From contig CAMTKF010000028.1 in the NCBI GenBank assembly GCA_947072905.1, forward strand, positions 1 through 36,279: a stretch of DNA of 36,279 nt. Direction: 5' to 3'. The notes under the pieces were generated by a model. It saw only the letters and a list, made by a program, of their open reading frames with translations, was not told the origin of the DNA and did no database searches. Numbering within the stretch: position 1 is the first letter of the stretch; every line of letters starts with the position of its first letter. Positions 12,078-29,027 of this stretch are shown one piece after another. A program made the translations under genes and the position numbers. Source of the DNA: an uncultured Bacteroidales bacterium. GTDB lineage: Bacteria > Bacteroidota > Bacteroidia > Bacteroidales > Muribaculaceae.

Positions 12078-14036
12078 ATGCATAATATTTCTGATTTGCA
12101 CCAAATGAATGATGAAGGCCTTCGCAAGGTGGCCGAAGAATTAGGATTAAAAAAGATAGATCTCTCTGATCGCACCGGCTTGATTTACGAAATACTCGAT
12201 GAACAAGCCGTAGTACGAGCAGCAACCACCGCGGCTAAACGTCGTTCAACCGATGATGGCGATGACGGCAAAAAGCGCACCCGTAAGAAGAAAGCGGCCG
12301 CACCGGCTCCCGCTCCTGAAGCAAATGCAGAACAGGCTCCCGCAGATGGAGAACAGCCTGCCGAAACCGCTGCCGCTGCCGAAGCTCCCAAACGACGCAG
12401 AGGTCGTCCATCCAAAAAAGAAATAGCCGAGCGCGAGGCGCAGGCTGAAATAAATAATACCGAAAATATTTCTGAAAATAATACGGCTGACGTGCCGACT
12501 GAATCGGCTGAGGACAATGCTCCGGCAGCAGAGCCACAGGCCGACGCAGCACAGCCCCATAATGCTGAAGAAGCTCGGCAGCAAGCTGATGCGCAGGCGG
12601 ATCACACTGACGAGCAGCAACAGCCTGAGCCGCGTAAGAGAGACTTCCGCCCGCAGGGCGACTTCAGTCTGTTCTTCCCCACAAGAGGCGAGGGACGCAA
12701 GTTTGTTCCGCGCTCGCAGCAAGAGAAGGAACAGGTGCGCGACAACAATCGCACGAGAACTGAACAGGCAGCTCCCGCGCCCATCACACTTGTAGAGCCG
12801 GGTCAGCCCATGCCTCAGCAGCAGAATAATGGTAAAAAGAAAAAGAATAAATTCAACAACGGCAACCAGAACATAACGGCTGACCAGCGTCTGCAACCCC
12901 AGCAGCGTTATGATTTTGAGGATTTTCTGCAGATGCAGGGTGTGCTCGAAATCGAACCTCAGGGCCACGGCTATCTGCGTTCGAGCGACTACAATTATCT
13001 TCCCTCGCCCGACGATGTACTGGTGACCCAGCAGCAGATTAAAGCCAATTCGCTCAAGGCCGGTGATGTGGTTGAATGTACCATACGTCCTCCCCACGAG
13101 GGCGAGAAATACTTCCCGCTGTCGCGAGTGCTGAAAGTAAATGGCCGCTCGCTCGAATTTATACGCGACCGCAAGGCCTTCGAACATCTCACTCCGCTTT
13201 TCCCGGATGAGAAATTCAATCTTACAGGCGGTGCCACAACATGCAATATCTCTACCCGAGTGGTTGATATGTTCGCTCCGATAGGCAAGGGCCAGCGTGC
13301 GCTGATAGTTGCGCCGCCCAAAACCGGTAAGACATTGTTGCTTAAAGATATAGCCAACGCTATTGCCGAGAATCACCCCGAAACATATATCATGATACTT
13401 CTTATTGACGAACGTCCCGAAGAAGTTACCGACATGATGCGCAGCGTAAATGCCGAGGTGATTGCATCTACATTTGATGAACCTGCTGACCGACATGTGA
13501 AGATCGCCGGCATCGTGCTCGAAAAAGCCAAGCGTATGGTTGAATGCGGTCATGATGTAGTGGTGCTTCTTGATTCAATCACACGTCTGGCACGTGCATA
13601 CAACACTGTGGCACCCGCTTCGGGTAAAATCCTTTCAGGTGGTGTGGATGCCAACGCTCTGCAGAAACCCAAGCGATTCTTCGGTGCAGCCCGTAACATC
13701 GAGGGTGGCGGTTCGCTCACTATAATCGCTACCGCTCTTACCGAGACTTCATCTAAGATGGACGAAGTAATCTTCGAGGAATTCAAGGGTACCGGTAATA
13801 TGGAGCTGCAGCTTGACCGCCGCTTGTCGAACAAGCGTATTTTCCCGGCAGTCGACATCATATCTTCGAGCACACGTCGCGACGACTTGTTGCTGCGTCC
13901 CGAAACCCTCAACCGTATGTGGATTCTGCGCCGTTTCCTCGGCGACCGTACCCCCATCGAGGCAATGGAATTTATCAAAGATCGCATGGAGCGTACTGTA
14001 GACAATGATGAATTGCTGCGCACAATGAACGATTGA
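12078..14036 (+). CDS. rho: Transcription termination factor Rho with a large disordered insertion
   Basis: Hexameric RNA-dependent ATPase that ends transcription and releases RNA polymerase. Residues 1-48 are the Rho N-terminal helical domain. Residues about 50-275 are a disordered insertion rich in Ala, Glu, Gln, Asn and basic clusters; it includes [11 protein letters not shown] (105-115), an AT-hook-like core. The RNA-binding cold-shock-like domain (about 280-365) includes [18 protein letters not shown]. The ATPase has P-loop APPKTGKT (412-419) and Walker B VVVLLDS with D499, and the Q/R-loop sequence continues intact to the end. At 652 residues it is much longer than E. coli Rho (419). 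The Rho insertion of Bacteroides thetaiotaomicron is reported to drive phase separation, so this one may act similarly (inference). Confidence 0.97.
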
Positions 14037-23830: not shown

Positions 23831-23848
23831 TCTTTGATATTAACAAAA

Positions 23849-23892
23849 AAGTGCAGCGTCGGTCGAATCTTACTTCGGCAGACGCTGCACTT
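23849..23892 (-). terminator. Convergent terminator between galE and the VKOR-peptide operon
   Basis: AAGTGCAGCGTC pairs perfectly with GACGCTGCACTT around a 20-base loop. On the minus strand the stem runs straight into TTTTTTG, a strong tail. On the plus strand the tail is only TTCTGTTATTTC, so it probably serves both genes but works best leftward. The 44-codon peptide ends 3 bases before it. Confidence 0.88.
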
Positions 23893-23895
23893 CTG

Positions 23896-24030
23896 TTATT
23901 TCTTATCAGCTATGGACTTCATTTTATCGGGAGTCAGCGGTGAATGGATTCCGCCGAAGTGTATGGCATTCATCTCCAGTGGTTTCAAAGGAACTGCACT
24001 ATCGAGTTCAGGCTTGATTATTTTCTTCAT
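23896..24030 (-). CDS. 44-residue peptide with double-glycine-like leader (candidate RiPP or signal peptide)
   Basis: A short open frame on the minus strand that gene finders usually miss. The 44 residues start MKKIIKPELDSAVPLKPLEM and continue with NAIHFGG, then a 17-residue end beginning IHSPLTPDKM. LEMNAIHFGG resembles the leader consensus L-x3-E-[LM]-x2-I-x-GG of peptides handled by C39 peptidases, with one extra residue between Ile and GG. Its start lies inside the last 23 bases of the C39-like/VKOR gene in a different frame, and its stop falls 3 bases before the terminator, so it is the final gene of that operon. No cysteine is present. The function is unknown; the frame could be chance, but leader, position and terminator agree. 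Confidence 0.6.
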   Translation of the reverse strand: MKKIIKPELDSAVPLKPLEMNAIHFGGIHSPLTPDKMKSIADKK

Positions 24031-25048
24031 TTTGAGGTAAATTTTTGAAAATTCTGAGAATTAGGTTGATAAACAATACCGCTGATACATATACGGCTAT
24101 CAGCACAAAGAAGTCAAGCCTGAGGGGTAATGCACCCTTGAACCAGCCACCGCCCAGATAGCAGAAAAACAGCAGCCACAGGGTGCTCTGAACACCCACG
24201 CACAAGGTACACCACCGGTGGGCGCGGAATCGCTGATACCATATACTCCACACTGTATAGGGCAGACAGCAAACATTGCATACGGCAAGATAAGGCCATA
24301 AATGGGGAAATACCAAAAGGCATATCAATGAAATGCCAAAATAGCCGAACCCGACCTCACTCCAGCTGAATACCCCAAACAGTTTGGATACTTTCATCGA
24401 CATTATTGAGTCGCAGCCGCCTTTCTCAAGAACCCCGCATACCTTGTCGCCGGTGGCGGTGTGGATGCCCAGTGATTTCTGTACCAGCAGGTATGAGAAA
24501 TATAATCCCGCCATGTCGAATACAGAAAGCAGGATGGTGGAAATGTTGGAATAGATATGCCTGGTTATGAAGAAGTATGCGAATACGCACACACAGCCAA
24601 TGGCGAGAATCCACTTGGATAAAGCCATCATGATCACCTGAAGATGATGCTGCGGATAGTCAGGCTCACGCGAGCCCGAGTCGGGGTAGGCGAGAAGTAC
24701 TATTCCGTTCCATGCCTGCTCAAATTCCGACACAGGCACCGTATTGTTCACGCCTAAAGAGTCGTAAGTGACAGTTTGTGCATGCCCGTCCATATCCTTT
24801 ACAATCACAAAGACCCCGTTGCCGGTCTGAGCCAAAAACGGGGTGGGAATCTTTGTCAATTCGGTTTTGTCGGATATTCTCAGAGCCTCGTTCGCAACCC
24901 CATAATCCTTAAGAAGATGCGACAATCCGAACAGCGATTGGAAAGTCATGCCTTTGAACCGCTGATCGGAATAAGCCTCGGTATATGGCACACCTAACGC
25001 TGCCAGAAATCGTGTGAATAAAGAAGGTGTGGCCATAGTAGTGTTCAT
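24008..25048 (-). CDS. Membrane protein: C39-like (inactive) domain fused to a VKOR domain
   Basis: About 346 residues. The first 125 resemble a C39 peptidase-like domain (FQSLFGLSHLLKDYGV, IPTPFLAQTGNGVFVIVKD, the NGIVLLAYPD end). The catalytic Cys is absent and the His of GHF is replaced (GVF), so it should bind but not cut. Six hydrophobic segments follow and contain a VKOR domain: a loop cysteine pair spaced eight apart (C204 and C212, in VCGVLEKGGC) and the CxxC active site WCTLC (C280, C283). VKOR proteins reoxidise DsbA-like partners using quinone. The start follows the thioredoxin stop by 2 bases. A TTG start 2 codons earlier is possible. C39-like domains in peptide ABC exporters bind double-glycine leaders, and one such leader is encoded just downstream. 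Confidence 0.85.
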   Translation of the reverse strand: MNTTMATPSLFTRFLAALGVPYTEAYSDQRFKGMTFQSLFGLSHLLKDYGVANEALRISDKTELTKIPTPFLAQTGNGVFVIVKDMDGHAQTVTYDSLGVNNTVPVSEFEQAWNGIVLLAYPDSGSREPDYPQHHLQVIMMALSKWILAIGCVCVFAYFFITRHIYSNISTILLSVFDMAGLYFSYLLVQKSLGIHTATGDKVCGVLEKGGCDSIMSMKVSKLFGVFSWSEVGFGYFGISLICLLVFPHLWPYLAVCNVCCLPYTVWSIWYQRFRAHRWCTLCVGVQSTLWLLFFCYLGGGWFKGALPLRLDFFVLIAVYVSAVLFINLILRIFKNLPQNEENNQA

Positions 25049-25050
25049 AT

Positions 25051-25347
25051 TCAATTGGAATAGCTTTGAATCTTGTTCAACAGATCGTTGCCTTCAATTT
25101 CGCCACTGTGACGCCACTGTTCATCGCCGTTTTTGTAGATGATGAAAGTGGGAACTGAATCGACCTTGTTGGCATTGGCGGCCTCCTGATTATTGTCTAT
25201 GTCGAGCTGGATTATGTCAACGCTGTCGGCGAGCAATTCCTTAATCTGCTCGACAACAGGCATCATTTTATGGCAATGAGGGCACCATGATGCGTAAAAT
25301 TCAACCAGGGTAACAGGGGTGTTTCTTATAGCTTGATCGTAAGTCAT
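25051..25347 (-). CDS. Thioredoxin-fold protein with DsbA-type CPHC active site
   Basis: A 98-residue thioredoxin-fold protein: FYASWCPHC at the active site, cis-Pro region VDSVPTFIIYKNG, and a C-terminal helix. Thioredoxin normally has WCGPC; CPHC is the motif of the oxidant DsbA, which makes this protein likely more oxidising. It has no signal peptide, so it is either cytosolic or exported by another route. It begins the operon and is followed after 2 bases by the C39-like/VKOR gene, whose VKOR domain is the functional analogue of DsbB. The pair therefore looks like a redox relay (inference). The promoter is not clear. Confidence 0.88.
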   Translation of the reverse strand: MTYDQAIRNTPVTLVEFYASWCPHCHKMMPVVEQIKELLADSVDIIQLDIDNNQEAANANKVDSVPTFIIYKNGDEQWRHSGEIEGNDLLNKIQSYSN

Positions 25348-25778: not shown

Positions 25779-26615
25779 ATGAGATCTGTTTTTAAGATTG
25801 TTTTCCTCGCTTTGCTTGTTTCCTTGGCCGGATGCAAAGCCGCTAAGAAAGTCCCTTATGTAGAGACCGCCGAAGTCATCCCCACTGAGGTACTTGCACA
25901 GTTATCTACTGTAAACGACCCGATTCTCGCCCCCGGCGATCTGCTGAATATAGATGTTTCTGCTTCTGATATGATGGCTGTGGCTCCGTTCAACCGTGGC
26001 ATGTATGTGGACGACAATGGTAAATTAAACAAAATAAGCAGCACTACCTCTACCCAAGGATCAATGGAATCGTCGACTCAATACTACCTCATCAATCAGG
26101 ACGGTTCAATCGTATTCCCCGGACTTGGAAGTGTGCATGCCGCCGGCCTCACCAAGCAGCAGCTTGCAGATAAGATTGCCGATGAGATTTATCCCAAATA
26201 CATCAAGGAACGTCCTAATGTGGATGTGCGTCTGATGAACTTCCGCGTCGTGGTTACAGGAGCTGTCAACAGCCCCGGCATATACAAGACAAGCACCGAG
26301 CGCATGAACTTCTTTGAGGCAATTGCTCTTGCCGGTGACCTCAATATCAAAGGTGATCGCGAGAATATCCTGCTATTCCGCACCAACGCCGACGGTTCGC
26401 GCGAAGTGCATAAGCTCAATATCCACGATCGCGACTTCCTTCTCTCACCCTACTTCAATCTGCAGCAGAACGATATCATATATGTGACACCCAACTCGTC
26501 GATGGCATCAACCGCATGGGCCATGAATCCCGGTGTGTCGGCCACACTCACATATATCGGTGGTATTTCGTCGCTGGCATCTCTCGTAATCGGTATTGTA
26601 AATCTTACTAAATAA
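25779..26615 (+). CDS. Wza-like outer-membrane polysaccharide export lipoprotein
   Basis: A 278-residue lipoprotein with lipobox LAGC (Cys19) after a hydrophobic signal. Residues about 50-130 match the Poly_export domain (LAPGDLLNIDVSASD, GSIVFPGLGSVHAAGLT), followed by a SLBB-like part (NFRVVVTGAVNSPGIYKT). The C terminus ends with a hydrophobic helix (TLTYIGGISSLASLVIGIVNL) typical of Bacteroidetes members, where it contributes the outer-membrane channel for capsule or exopolysaccharide export. The Wzc-like kinase gene follows after 6 bases. No glycosyltransferase or flippase gene lies in the window. Confidence 0.93.
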   Translation: MRSVFKIVFLALLVSLAGCKAAKKVPYVETAEVIPTEVLAQLSTVNDPILAPGDLLNIDVSASDMMAVAPFNRGMYVDDNGKLNKISSTTSTQGSMESSTQYYLINQDGSIVFPGLGSVHAAGLTKQQLADKIADEIYPKYIKERPNVDVRLMNFRVVVTGAVNSPGIYKTSTERMNFFEAIALAGDLNIKGDRENILLFRTNADGSREVHKLNIHDRDFLLSPYFNLQQNDIIYVTPNSSMASTAWAMNPGVSATLTYIGGISSLASLVIGIVNLTK

Positions 26616-26621
26616 TAAACA

Positions 26622-29027
26622 ATGTCCAACGACTCAACAGACAGAAAGGACGAAGCCATAACCAACGGCAGTGAAGAAGCATTTGACCTCACCGGTCTTC
26701 TGCTCGACTATCTAAGCAAGTGGAAATGGTTCTTGCTAAGTGTTGTGGTATTCATAATAGGTGCATATTTTTATATAGCCACCATCGTACCCACTTACAA
26801 AGTCAACGCTTCGATCTATCTCAACAAGGCTGATGCCCAGTCGGGCGCCGCCACCCTTGATCCCAACAGTCCCCTCGTGTCTATGAAAACATACATAGAC
26901 GAGACCGAGCTTGAGATTCTGAAATCGCGCAATAACGTTATCGACATCGTAGATTCGCTCAATATGTCCTACTCATATTGGCGCAAGGGCAATTTCCGCG
27001 ACATTCCAATCTACGAGAACAATGCCGTGGAGGTAAAACTTGACTCCGTTTCGTTGCGCAACCTCACATCTCCCATTGAACTGACTGTCTCAAACGGCAC
27101 ATCAGAAAATAAATTTGATATCGTAGCTAAAACTAACTTCAACGATGCCAAAGAAGAGAAGAAACTCGAGAACGTAACTCTTCCGTGCGAAATAGACCTC
27201 TCGCAGGGCACTGTTACCGTATCGCGAGTATCGCACGTACCGGCTCTTGAAGGAACTGAGAAAGTCTATATCCGCAATCCACGCACTGTCGCAGCCCAGC
27301 TGGCGTCTGCTCTCAACATCAGTTTTGCTGATAAATCTTCTACCATCGTACGTATCAGTCTTCTGACAAATCTTCAGCGCGAGGGCGTTGACGTTATCAA
27401 TACACTCGTTTATCTTTACAACCGTCAGATTATCGAAGACAAGAACCGCTCGGCCATCCAGACCGAAGCCTTCATCCTTGAGCGTCTTGTGATGATCAAC
27501 GATGAACTGCGCGATGTGGAACAGCGTCTGCAAGACTACCGTCAGGCTCATAATATCGCCGACCTCGGTGCCCAGCTCAATACCTCGCTGGCTACCAAGA
27601 CTAATTCAGAAAGCCAGCTTGCCGAAGTTGAGGCACAAAGCCAGATTATTTCGTCAATCGAAAATGCTGTGGCCAAGGCTGACGAATATTCCACACTGCC
27701 CTCGGCAACTTCAGACCAGGGACTTAACACTGTCATCGAGTCGTACAACCGCAAGGTAAGCCAGCTCAACCGCATGATGGAAACTCAGACATCCGATAAT
27801 CCTGTGGTGAAGAGCGTTCAGGAAGAACTTACACGCGAAAAGAGCCGTATTCTTCAGAATATATCGTCGGTAAAAGGCGGTCTTAATGCCCGTAAGAAGA
27901 ACATTGTGGCTATAGAAGGCCGAAGCGCGGGAACGCTTTCATCCGTGCCGACCATAGACAAGGGTCTTCAGGAAATTTTCCGCGAACAGCAGGTTAAGGT
28001 AAACATCTACACCTTCCTCCTGCAGAAGCGCGAGGAAATAGCTTTGCAGAAAACCCTTGCCACACCTACCGCACGCTTGATCGACAATCCTGTGGGTGAA
28101 GGTCCCGTGAGTCCCAAGGTCAGCACCATCTATATGATAGCATTCCTGCTGGGTCTTGCACTTCCCGCGGCCATCATCTTCATTCACCGCTTCTTCTTCC
28201 CCGTATTCAAAGACCAGGAAGAGCTGCAACGCCTTACCAAGCTGCCTATCATCGGTGAAATTTCAAATGACTACGATACCGAAGACCCCATAGTTGTAGG
28301 TGAAAATGTGTCTACTGCCATTGCCGAGCTGTTCAGACTGCTGCGCAATAACATAGGATTCACCAAAAATGGAGCTGACAAGAAGGTTATACTCGTCACT
28401 TCATCAATCTCGGGTGAAGGTAAGACATTCATAGCCACCAACCTGGCAATGACATACGCACTTACCGGCAAGAAAACAATCGTAGTAGGTATGGATATAC
28501 GCCGACCCGTGCTGGCTCACAAGTTCGGTCTTACCAACCAGCAGGGTGTCACAACATTCCTCTCGGGACAGTGCAACGACATATCAAATCTCATTTTCCA
28601 GAGCAAAGAAAATGAAAATCTGTTTGTGATGCCTGCCGGTCCGGTACCGCCCAATCCCAACGAATTGCTGCTGAGCAACAACATGACACGTCTTGTAGAG
28701 CAGCTGCGACACGATTTCGATTATGTTGTGATTGACTCAGCTCCTATAGGTCTGATATCAGACTCGTTCCTGATTGTTCCGCATGCCGACATCGAGCTGT
28801 ACGTCACCCGCGCATCGTATTCTACCAAGACATGCCTCAAGGTGCTCCATCAGGCTCACGCCGCCGGAAAGCTCAAGGATGCTTACATCGTGCTCAACGG
28901 CGTTGATATGAAGTCGGGCTCATATACCTACCGTAAGTATGGCCATTATTACCATTCCAACAACACCTATGGCTATGCGTATGGCTATGGTTATTCCAAC
29001 GACAAGGATAAGAAATCCAAGAAATAA
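26622..29027 (+). CDS. Wzc-like polysaccharide copolymerase with BY-kinase domain
   Basis: An 801-residue inner-membrane protein that controls chain length and export of capsule polymer with the Wza-like partner. Order: Wzz chain-length domain with TM1 (about 38-58, WFLLSVVVFIIGAYFYI), long periplasmic coiled-coil region, TM2 (about 505-530), then cytoplasmic bacterial tyrosine kinase. Kinase signatures are Walker A SSISGEGKT (about 592-600), Walker A' VVGMDIRRP and Walker B YVVIDSAP. The tail is a tyrosine cluster (YRKYGHYYHSNNTYGYAYGY), the usual autophosphorylation site. Fusion of Wzz and kinase in one chain is the Gram-negative form. No gap or frameshift is seen. Confidence 0.95.
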   Translation: MSNDSTDRKDEAITNGSEEAFDLTGLLLDYLSKWKWFLLSVVVFIIGAYFYIATIVPTYKVNASIYLNKADAQSGAATLDPNSPLVSMKTYIDETELEILKSRNNVIDIVDSLNMSYSYWRKGNFRDIPIYENNAVEVKLDSVSLRNLTSPIELTVSNGTSENKFDIVAKTNFNDAKEEKKLENVTLPCEIDLSQGTVTVSRVSHVPALEGTEKVYIRNPRTVAAQLASALNISFADKSSTIVRISLLTNLQREGVDVINTLVYLYNRQIIEDKNRSAIQTEAFILERLVMINDELRDVEQRLQDYRQAHNIADLGAQLNTSLATKTNSESQLAEVEAQSQIISSIENAVAKADEYSTLPSATSDQGLNTVIESYNRKVSQLNRMMETQTSDNPVVKSVQEELTREKSRILQNISSVKGGLNARKKNIVAIEGRSAGTLSSVPTIDKGLQEIFREQQVKVNIYTFLLQKREEIALQKTLATPTARLIDNPVGEGPVSPKVSTIYMIAFLLGLALPAAIIFIHRFFFPVFKDQEELQRLTKLPIIGEISNDYDTEDPIVVGENVSTAIAELFRLLRNNIGFTKNGADKKVILVTSSISGEGKTFIATNLAMTYALTGKKTIVVGMDIRRPVLAHKFGLTNQQGVTTFLSGQCNDISNLIFQSKENENLFVMPAGPVPPNPNELLLSNNMTRLVEQLRHDFDYVVIDSAPIGLISDSFLIVPHADIELYVTRASYSTKTCLKVLHQAHAAGKLKDAYIVLNGVDMKSGSYTYRKYGHYYHSNNTYGYAYGYGYSNDKDKKSKK

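Follow-up and report, generated by a model that had tools for sequence, protein, structure and literature searches.

We analyzed a 36,279-nucleotide stretch of DNA from an uncultured Bacteroidales bacterium of the family Muribaculaceae (contig CAMTKF010000028.1, positions 1 to 36,279; hereafter the window), which carries on its minus strand a three-gene cassette encoding a CPHC thioredoxin, a membrane protein in which a C39-like domain is fused to a VKOR domain (C39-VKOR), and a 44-residue leader-like peptide. The reading we prefer, with a probability of roughly one half, is that these genes encode a disulfide oxidase whose active site faces the cytoplasm and which holds the leader-like peptide as a captive subunit. 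At the level of sequence, the alignments establish a conserved cassette, a C39-like domain that appears dead, intact VKOR cysteines, a peptide in leader register, and the loss of its double-glycine (GG) motif. The features of the locus are as follows.

25051-25347, minus strand: thioredoxin-fold protein, 98 residues, with ASWCPHC (the CPHC motif); Pfam Thioredoxin, E 2.6e-24.
24008-25054, minus strand: C39-VKOR fusion, 348 residues counted from a TTG (ATG codons lie downstream, one of which may be the start).
24665-25024, minus strand: C39-like domain, predicted to be catalytically dead, about residues 11-130 of C39-VKOR.
24536-24607, minus strand: TM0, an extra transmembrane helix that separates the C39-like domain from the VKOR core, at about residues 150-173, placed by hand.
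24161-24529, minus strand: VKOR domain, residues 176-298, with C206, C214, C282, and C285.
23896-24030, minus strand: leader-like peptide gene, 44 residues.
23953-23988, minus strand: leader-like motif LKPLEMNAIHFG, positions -12 to -1, predicted to dock.
23899-23946, minus strand: C-terminal half of the peptide with a second conserved element, HSPLTPDKM here and HTVLTPEQL-like in most relatives.
23841-23898, minus strand: intrinsic terminator at and after the peptide stop; the hairpin folds with -30.1 kcal/mol (z -7.79).

Both Pfam matches in C39-VKOR lie above the cut-off (VKOR, E 1.7e-10, residues 176-298; Peptidase_C39, E 7.7e-7, residues 40-125), and the peptide gene overlaps the 3' end of C39-VKOR by 23 bases. 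A first-pass annotation of this DNA had described a thioredoxin with the DsbA motif CPHC, a C39-like domain that had lost Cys and His, a VKOR domain with both cysteine pairs, a 44-codon frame overlapping the fusion gene, and a strong terminator behind it; the genes, their coordinates, and these assignments are all borne out by our analysis.

In the mechanism we propose, the locus would operate as a self-contained redox cassette. The CxHC thioredoxin would reside in the cytoplasm, where a VKOR with cytoplasm-facing active-site cysteines would keep it oxidized, and electrons would pass from the thioredoxin (CxHC) to VKOR and on to menaquinone; the genome to which the window belongs encodes MenA. 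The peptide would be a leader-derived subunit, a captive leader: its LTPxEMNxI half would occupy the hydrophobic groove for leaders in the dead C39-like domain, with no possibility of cleavage or export, and from there the peptide would either activate the oxidase or tether the thioredoxin or a substrate through its second element, LTPEQL. We give such an activating or tethering role about an even chance.

The cassette is conserved well beyond the window. In a public genome collection, 254 stretches encode relatives of C39-VKOR, and we analyzed the best 80 of these 254, which are labelled mostly as Muribaculaceae or other Bacteroidales (some genus labels are evidently wrong). The peptide stands beside C39-VKOR at all 80 loci, downstream at 79 and inverted at one. 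A strict motif detects 64 of the peptides, 15 more were recognized by eye, and a relaxed pattern brings the total to 79; this pattern, which was shaped on the same 80 loci, matches downstream at 79 of the 80 against 0.24 expected from Markov shuffles scored with the identical pattern. At one locus (L140) the peptide frame enters unread bases. Relative to the C39-VKOR stop, the peptide starts within an overlap at 45 of 70 loci, no more than 50 bases after it at 20, and further away at 5; the remaining 10 loci were set aside, as the matched stretch contains stops or no frame was extracted. The inverted case, the sole one in the 80, is an intact peptide gene on the minus strand near position 7050 of L143, lying tail to tail with C39-VKOR. 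A CxHC thioredoxin is encoded just upstream of C39-VKOR in 76 of the 80 (62 CPHC, 9 CGHC, 4 CSHC, and 1 CQHC).

Two further samples agree with this picture. Our first sample comprised 61 genomes, several contigs of which recur among the best 80, so that the two sets are not additive; it contained 20 loci with a near full-length, cassette-type C39-VKOR and sequence beyond it, and a related small frame stands at the end of the gene in 20 of 20. Two more loci fall outside this count, L021 (in genome G014) stopping at a contig end and L022 being a fragment. Among 49 genomes of the same genus, 28 encode a full-length C39-VKOR, and the peptide adjoins it in 27, the exception being the contig end in G014. 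Strong peptide matches away from full cassettes were found in these 49 genomes only beside remnants (in G457 and G021), and all other matches to the peptide profile are weak, with E 0.029 or worse. When 22 stretches (the window and 21 others) were compared, no neighboring family occurred in more than five, barring C39-VKOR, the thioredoxin, and an antisense frame opposite the latter. Of the recurring neighbors, those looked up proved to be an aminotransferase, an EPSP-synthase-like enzyme, and a metal-type ABC permease (ABC-3; two loci); single neighbors are only partly annotated. With no neighbor family recurring more widely than this, the unit stands alone. That the cassette is real is virtually certain, and the earlier proposal that the three genes belong together, with a frame that relatives would keep in the same position, is upheld by their joint conservation.

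The peptide itself carries the register of a leader. We aligned 79 peptides on the motif (78 loci and the window, omitting L140 and L143); the alignment pattern itself requires hydrophobic residues at -12, -7, and -4, and every locus nevertheless matched. Position -12 is Leu in 77 of the 79, -7 is Leu or Met in 77, and -4 is Ile, Leu, Met, Phe, or Val in 78, while -6 is Asn in 73, a residue for which we know of no groove-binding role. In the window these positions correspond to L15 (-12), M20 (-7), and I23 (-4), with F25-G26 at -2/-1. In the excerpted text of PMC6363468, the groove of the LahT C39 domain is described as binding leader positions -12, -7, and -4 and as tolerating changes of Glu-8. 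At -2/-1, the place of the cleavage site, GG occurs in none of the 79 peptides: position -2 is Phe in 48, Cys in 16, and Ile in 7, and Phe, Cys, Ile, Leu, and Tyr together account for 77. A GG adjoins this site in 7 of the 79 (the window, L064-L068, and L128), that of the window being one residue off the canonical leader register. Because the GG is neither conserved nor in register, no C39-type cleavage site is left, and on these alignments the peptide is one that retains the features for C39 binding and has lost those for cleavage. The first-pass annotation had called it a double-glycine leader-like peptide and expected relatives to keep the GG motif; the likeness to a leader stands at the positions that C39 domains bind, and the double glycine does not. 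Its further suggestion that the peptide is not a disulfide-rich product agrees with the absence of any peptide with at least two Cys (0/79). The single Cys that replaces Phe at -2 in 16 of the 79 (e.g. L087, L099, and L119) is a candidate for a mixed disulfide with the oxidase. The second, HTVLTPEQL-like element is found in 58 of the 79. No Pfam or NCBIfam family matches the window peptide up to E 1, and TIGR04149, a Bacteroidales model for precursors of ribosomally synthesized and post-translationally modified peptides (RiPPs), touches one of 20 peptides at E 0.13.

The likely partner of this peptide is a C39-like domain that has kept the peptidase fold and lost its catalytic residues. The aligned catalytic Cys, His, and Asp are present in none of 69 cassette proteins (0/69 each), whereas all 15 C39 exporters from related clusters, which served as the reference for the alignment, keep all three. 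Judged from these residues the domain is catalytically dead, with the Asp gone as well as the Cys and His. In an AlphaFold model of a read-through of the peptide from C39-VKOR of the homologue L104, the leader half of the peptide reaches a predicted local confidence (pLDDT) of 84-95 after a linker at 40-44, and it has strand or bridge residues that are missing from the peptide folded alone. Together with the register, the model suggests that the leader half probably docks in the groove of the C39-like domain.

The VKOR part keeps its cysteines, and its charge pattern points to an unusual orientation. The domain has the four-helix core with two cysteine pairs, and an alignment of 21 proteins shows no variation at C206, C214, C282, and C285. 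Bacterial VKOR has five helices, and characterized bacterial VKORs usually face outward; the AlphaFold model of L104 shows six long membrane helices. In a first count, the Cys-bearing loops held more Lys and Arg (K+R) than loop 2-3 did in all 69 cassette proteins counted, the means being 4.78 and 2.84 versus 0.10, and the Cys-bearing loops are likewise the K/R-rich side in 24 of 24 long C39-VKOR-thioredoxin fusions, whereas of 25 VKORs from the same phylum without a C39 domain 21 have the opposite charge pattern, three that of the cassette, and one a tie. That count omitted 12 of the 80 loci (stops, unread bases) and five of the 30 comparison loci; when the latter were restored, L163 proved ordinary and L170 and L177 reversed, L160 was a C39 fusion already counted, and L156 could not be divided into loops. 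The full count gives a reversed pattern in 81 of 81 cassette proteins (the 80 loci and the window), and among 28 VKORs without C39 it gives 22 ordinary, five reversed, and one tie. Summed over whole proteins in a 65-row alignment, six rows of which include the peptide, K+R amounts to about 13.1 on the C39 side and about 1.8 on the other; acidic residues are frequent as well in the stretch before TM0. This reversed bias is a new observation, absent from the first-pass annotation.

The C39-like domain and the thioredoxin are consistent with this orientation. The C39-type domain of exporters is cytosolic. The N-terminus of the window thioredoxin is not hydrophobic, and on inspection of its sequence, for which no predictor was used, no signal peptide, as an exported DsbA-type oxidase would have, was seen. 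The thioredoxin should therefore be on the same side as the C39-like domain, that is, in the cytoplasm, and with both of them on the side of the Cys-bearing loops the active site should face the cytoplasm too. We consider it very probable, from the charge bias, that the VKOR cysteines face the cytoplasm; placement of the cysteines outside the cytoplasm, which is usual for VKOR and not defining, would then not apply here.

Three VKORs without a C39-like domain bear on the same topic. L170 and L177 have the reversed charge pattern, and in L177 the core is preceded by a hydrophobic helix, comparable to TM0. In G456, a VKOR of 212 residues (L210:1450-2088) keeps a TM0 with a basic N-terminus and the four cysteines; it follows the end of a thioredoxin frame, and the contig stops 82 bases later. 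We also considered TM0 as the first helix of a PCAT-type exporter and rejected this candidate: a profile search aligned C39 and the first helix with PCAT1, with weak posteriors, but hhalign alignments against exporters of related clusters ended at the end of the C39 domain; there is only a hint of such kinship.

Several observations weigh against a cytoplasmic oxidase with a docked leader. No thioredoxin was found in the available stretch of L065, L070, or L139, that of L069 lies about 5 kb away, and the flank of L018 is without one. Five of the 28 VKORs without C39 also have a basic Cys side, and the basic residues in the Cys-bearing loops could serve redox partners instead. The alignment of the C39 sites is gappy at the His (a gap in 55 of 69), and within six columns of the catalytic sites a Cys occurs in 6 and a His in 3 of the 69 proteins. 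One Cys is present in 20 of the 79 peptides, which may give the peptide a redox role of its own. The peptide alone also folds at a pLDDT of 81.6 (predicted template-modeling score 0.36), so the fused model supports docking only weakly. Covariation between the peptide and C39 shows no excess, C39 pairs making up 9 of the top 20 (6.9 expected), 13 of 40 (13.8), and 25 of 80 (27.6). Finally, two genomes (G457 and G021; loci L207 and L209) keep the thioredoxin and the peptide frame with a C39-VKOR that is disrupted or almost wholly deleted.

The last two of these observations, and the conservation of the C-terminal LTPEQL element, favor an alternative in which the oxidase is the same cytoplasmic enzyme and the peptide, sitting outside the C39 groove, inhibits it or serves as an adaptor that binds the thioredoxin. 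We regard it as unlikely, given that the most conserved positions of the peptide, -12, -7, and -4, are those that bind the LahT groove and are in the correct register, only Asn -6 being equally conserved. A docked, captive leader remains our preferred account.

The orientation could also be the ordinary one, with the cysteines in the periplasm and either the C39-like domain there as well or TM0 re-entrant; a periplasmic partner would then be oxidized and the peptide would regulate this reaction. Such an arrangement agrees with the outward orientation that is the rule among characterized bacterial VKORs, and 22 of the 28 VKORs without C39 have the matching charge pattern. It is nevertheless quite unlikely in view of the bias, which is reversed in every cassette protein and every long fusion, of the TM0 helix that brings the count to six, of a thioredoxin without a signal peptide, and of the cytosolic location of C39-type domains in exporters.

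Hardly more probable than the ordinary orientation, and if anything a shade less so, is that the peptide is a secreted double-glycine product, either a bacteriocin or a signal, which some C39 exporter would cleave and export while the VKOR module plays an accessory part. The leader-like residues at -12, -7, and -4 and the single touch of TIGR04149 speak for it, and 7 of the 28 cassette genomes have a full-model C39 match in a long frame elsewhere, which we took to be an exporter. A RiPP precursor should combine hydrophobic leader positions, which are present, with a small-residue pair at -2/-1 and, counting Cys only, Cys pairs in the core, both of which are absent, so that there is neither a cleavage-site GG nor a Cys pair to oxidize. 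A cognate active C39 exporter is missing as well: the window's genome, which is 99.92% complete, has no C39 match besides C39-VKOR (also its sole VKOR match), and no C39 exporter was found in 21 of the 28 cassette genomes, the window's included (a hand count; some of these genomes are 71-90% complete). Beyond the cassette genes and the antisense frame, no neighbor family recurs in more than five of the 22 stretches. We therefore rejected the secreted GG peptide as the best reading, on the cleavage-site GG in 0 of 79 and on the lack of a C39 exporter in most carriers. Substrates in trans, a separate candidate, were rejected as well: a search of the window's genome with the peptide profile gave the peptide and nothing else up to E 10.

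The peptide is a conserved gene under purifying selection. Pooled over 27 disjoint pairs, the ratio of nonsynonymous to synonymous proportions (pN/pS) is 0.379 (pS 0.743, pN 0.281), these being raw proportions with synonymous sites near saturation, and two of the pairs, which involve L077 and L078 (98% identical), are not truly independent; the window and L065 differ with pS 0.75 and pN 0.25. This coding constraint is what the first-pass annotation had proposed to look for. That the frame is short and overlaps C39-VKOR had left room for a chance frame or an artefact of the 3' end, a notion now refuted, and next to impossible, given its presence at 80 of 80 loci (one inverted), an overlap of just 23 bases in the window, and a pN/pS of 0.38.

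A possible origin of the captive leader is suggested by longer relatives of C39-VKOR. VKOR is encoded in 93 of 395 sampled genomes of the phylum, and many of those in the same class are frames of 500-580 residues; the two that were scanned with Pfam (L187 and L146) have a Thioredoxin_4 domain at the C-terminus in addition to C39 and VKOR. The cassette protein is homologous to this long form along its whole length (hhalign probability 100 over 327 columns), and few of the aligned C39 catalytic residues are kept in the long fusions either (Cys 1/24, His 0/24, Asp 3/24). We sampled the neighborhoods of 22 long-form loci, namely 20 listed loci and two from G019. Within the available stretch, a C39 exporter is near the fusion in 15 of the 22 and an HlyD-like protein in 14, and a regular-expression search finds precursors with a GG leader and at least two Cys near up to 10, of which that at L192 looks like chance. 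Some of the leaders in these clusters (LSRAEMKNVLGG) share the register of LTPLEMNAIRFS. A leader dock joined to a disulfide oxidase is thus also found away from this locus, the longer C39-VKOR-thioredoxin proteins lying in export clusters for GG peptides in other Bacteroidota.

Since the long forms stand beside C39 exporters and Cys-rich GG precursors, the cassette looks like a stripped-down descendant. The ancestor would have been a C39-VKOR-thioredoxin oxidase that formed disulfides in leader-bearing, Cys-rich peptides before their export, and the simplest path from it would comprise loss of the exporter, the cleavage site, the Cys-rich core, and the fused thioredoxin, and gain of a separate thioredoxin. 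We infer this direction, from long form to cassette, from the comparison above.

The long-form clusters are of interest in their own right. Nine loci (L180, L182, L183, L187, L188, L190, L194, L197, and L198) have Cys-rich precursors with a GG (or GS) leader near a C39-VKOR-thioredoxin fusion, and six of the nine have a C39 exporter nearby; this looks like a type of disulfide-peptide cluster for which we found no description. G019 contains several C39-VKOR genes, one of the cassette type, two long ones, and another that a contig end truncates; just upstream of a C39-VKOR-thioredoxin gene in this genome lies a frame (L147:7149-7619) for a Cys-rich peptide with an extended run of Gly and Ser.

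Elsewhere in the window, a divergent polysaccharide export pair (a Poly_export/SLBB protein and a Wzc-like kinase) lies upstream of the cassette at 25779-29027 on the plus strand, and no relatives of this pair were found among the 21 other stretches compared. At 12078-14036 on the plus strand the window encodes a Rho factor of 652 residues that covers its 413-position model from end to end, which implies a long insertion.

Every part of the cassette comes from a known family, and the clusters with long-form fusions are of a recognizable kind. In the open-licence PubMed Central literature we found no paper on VKOR together with C39, a leader peptide, a RiPP, or a bacteriocin, or on VKOR in Bacteroidetes, in this arrangement, nor one on the long C39-VKOR-Trx4 fusions, and the same literature gave no published case of a reversed VKOR with a leader-only gene fixed to it. 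A wider reading, to which we give somewhat less than even odds, is that the locus represents an oxidative disulfide pathway for the bacterial cytoplasm, built from a naturally inverted VKOR, a cytosolic CxHC thioredoxin, and a stand-alone captive-leader protein, the last being the leader of a RiPP now lost, retained as a fixed subunit of the enzyme that formerly matured the RiPP. If this is true, anaerobic gut Bacteroidales have a dedicated pathway for disulfides in the cytoplasm-facing compartment, and a RiPP leader can persist as a free-standing enzyme subunit once its product is lost. An inverted C39-VKOR would also explain how the Cys-rich GG peptides of Bacteroidota obtain their disulfides, on the leader and before export. 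Two carriers are apparently cultured, by their labels: Paramuribaculum intestinale DSM 100749 (L112) and Muribaculaceae Isolate-110 (L107).

Among known systems, the C39-like domains of type I secretion ABC transporters such as HlyB are fused to an ABC transporter in the place that VKOR takes here, and the partner here, unlike theirs, resembles a GG-type leader. LahT and PCAT1 have a C39 peptidase with bound leader or substrate, whereas here no protease activity is expected, the partner is without GG, and there is no exporter. Compared with the bacterial VKOR of Synechococcus (4nv5), the cassette protein has a reversed charge bias, an extra N-terminal helix, and a C39-like domain. The VKOR of Aeropyrum pernix is reportedly active in two compartments (Hibender 2017), with disulfides proposed on the cytoplasmic side; it is archaeal and is not known to have a C39 domain or a peptide. 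Bacteroidetocin clusters of Bacteroidales, as described in PMC6671954, encode GG-leader, Cys-bearing peptides together with a dedicated thiol oxidoreductase and an ABC exporter of the double-glycine-peptidase type; they differ in that their product is a secreted toxin, and neither "VKOR" nor "C39" appears in that text, which also says that Bacteroides lack general disulfide machinery. The closest relatives are the C39-VKOR-Trx4 fusions in GG-peptide export clusters of other Bacteroidota, which share homology and the same reversed charge bias with the cassette protein, and which differ from it in having a fused C-terminal DsbA-like thioredoxin, with C39 exporters and GG Cys-rich precursors nearby.

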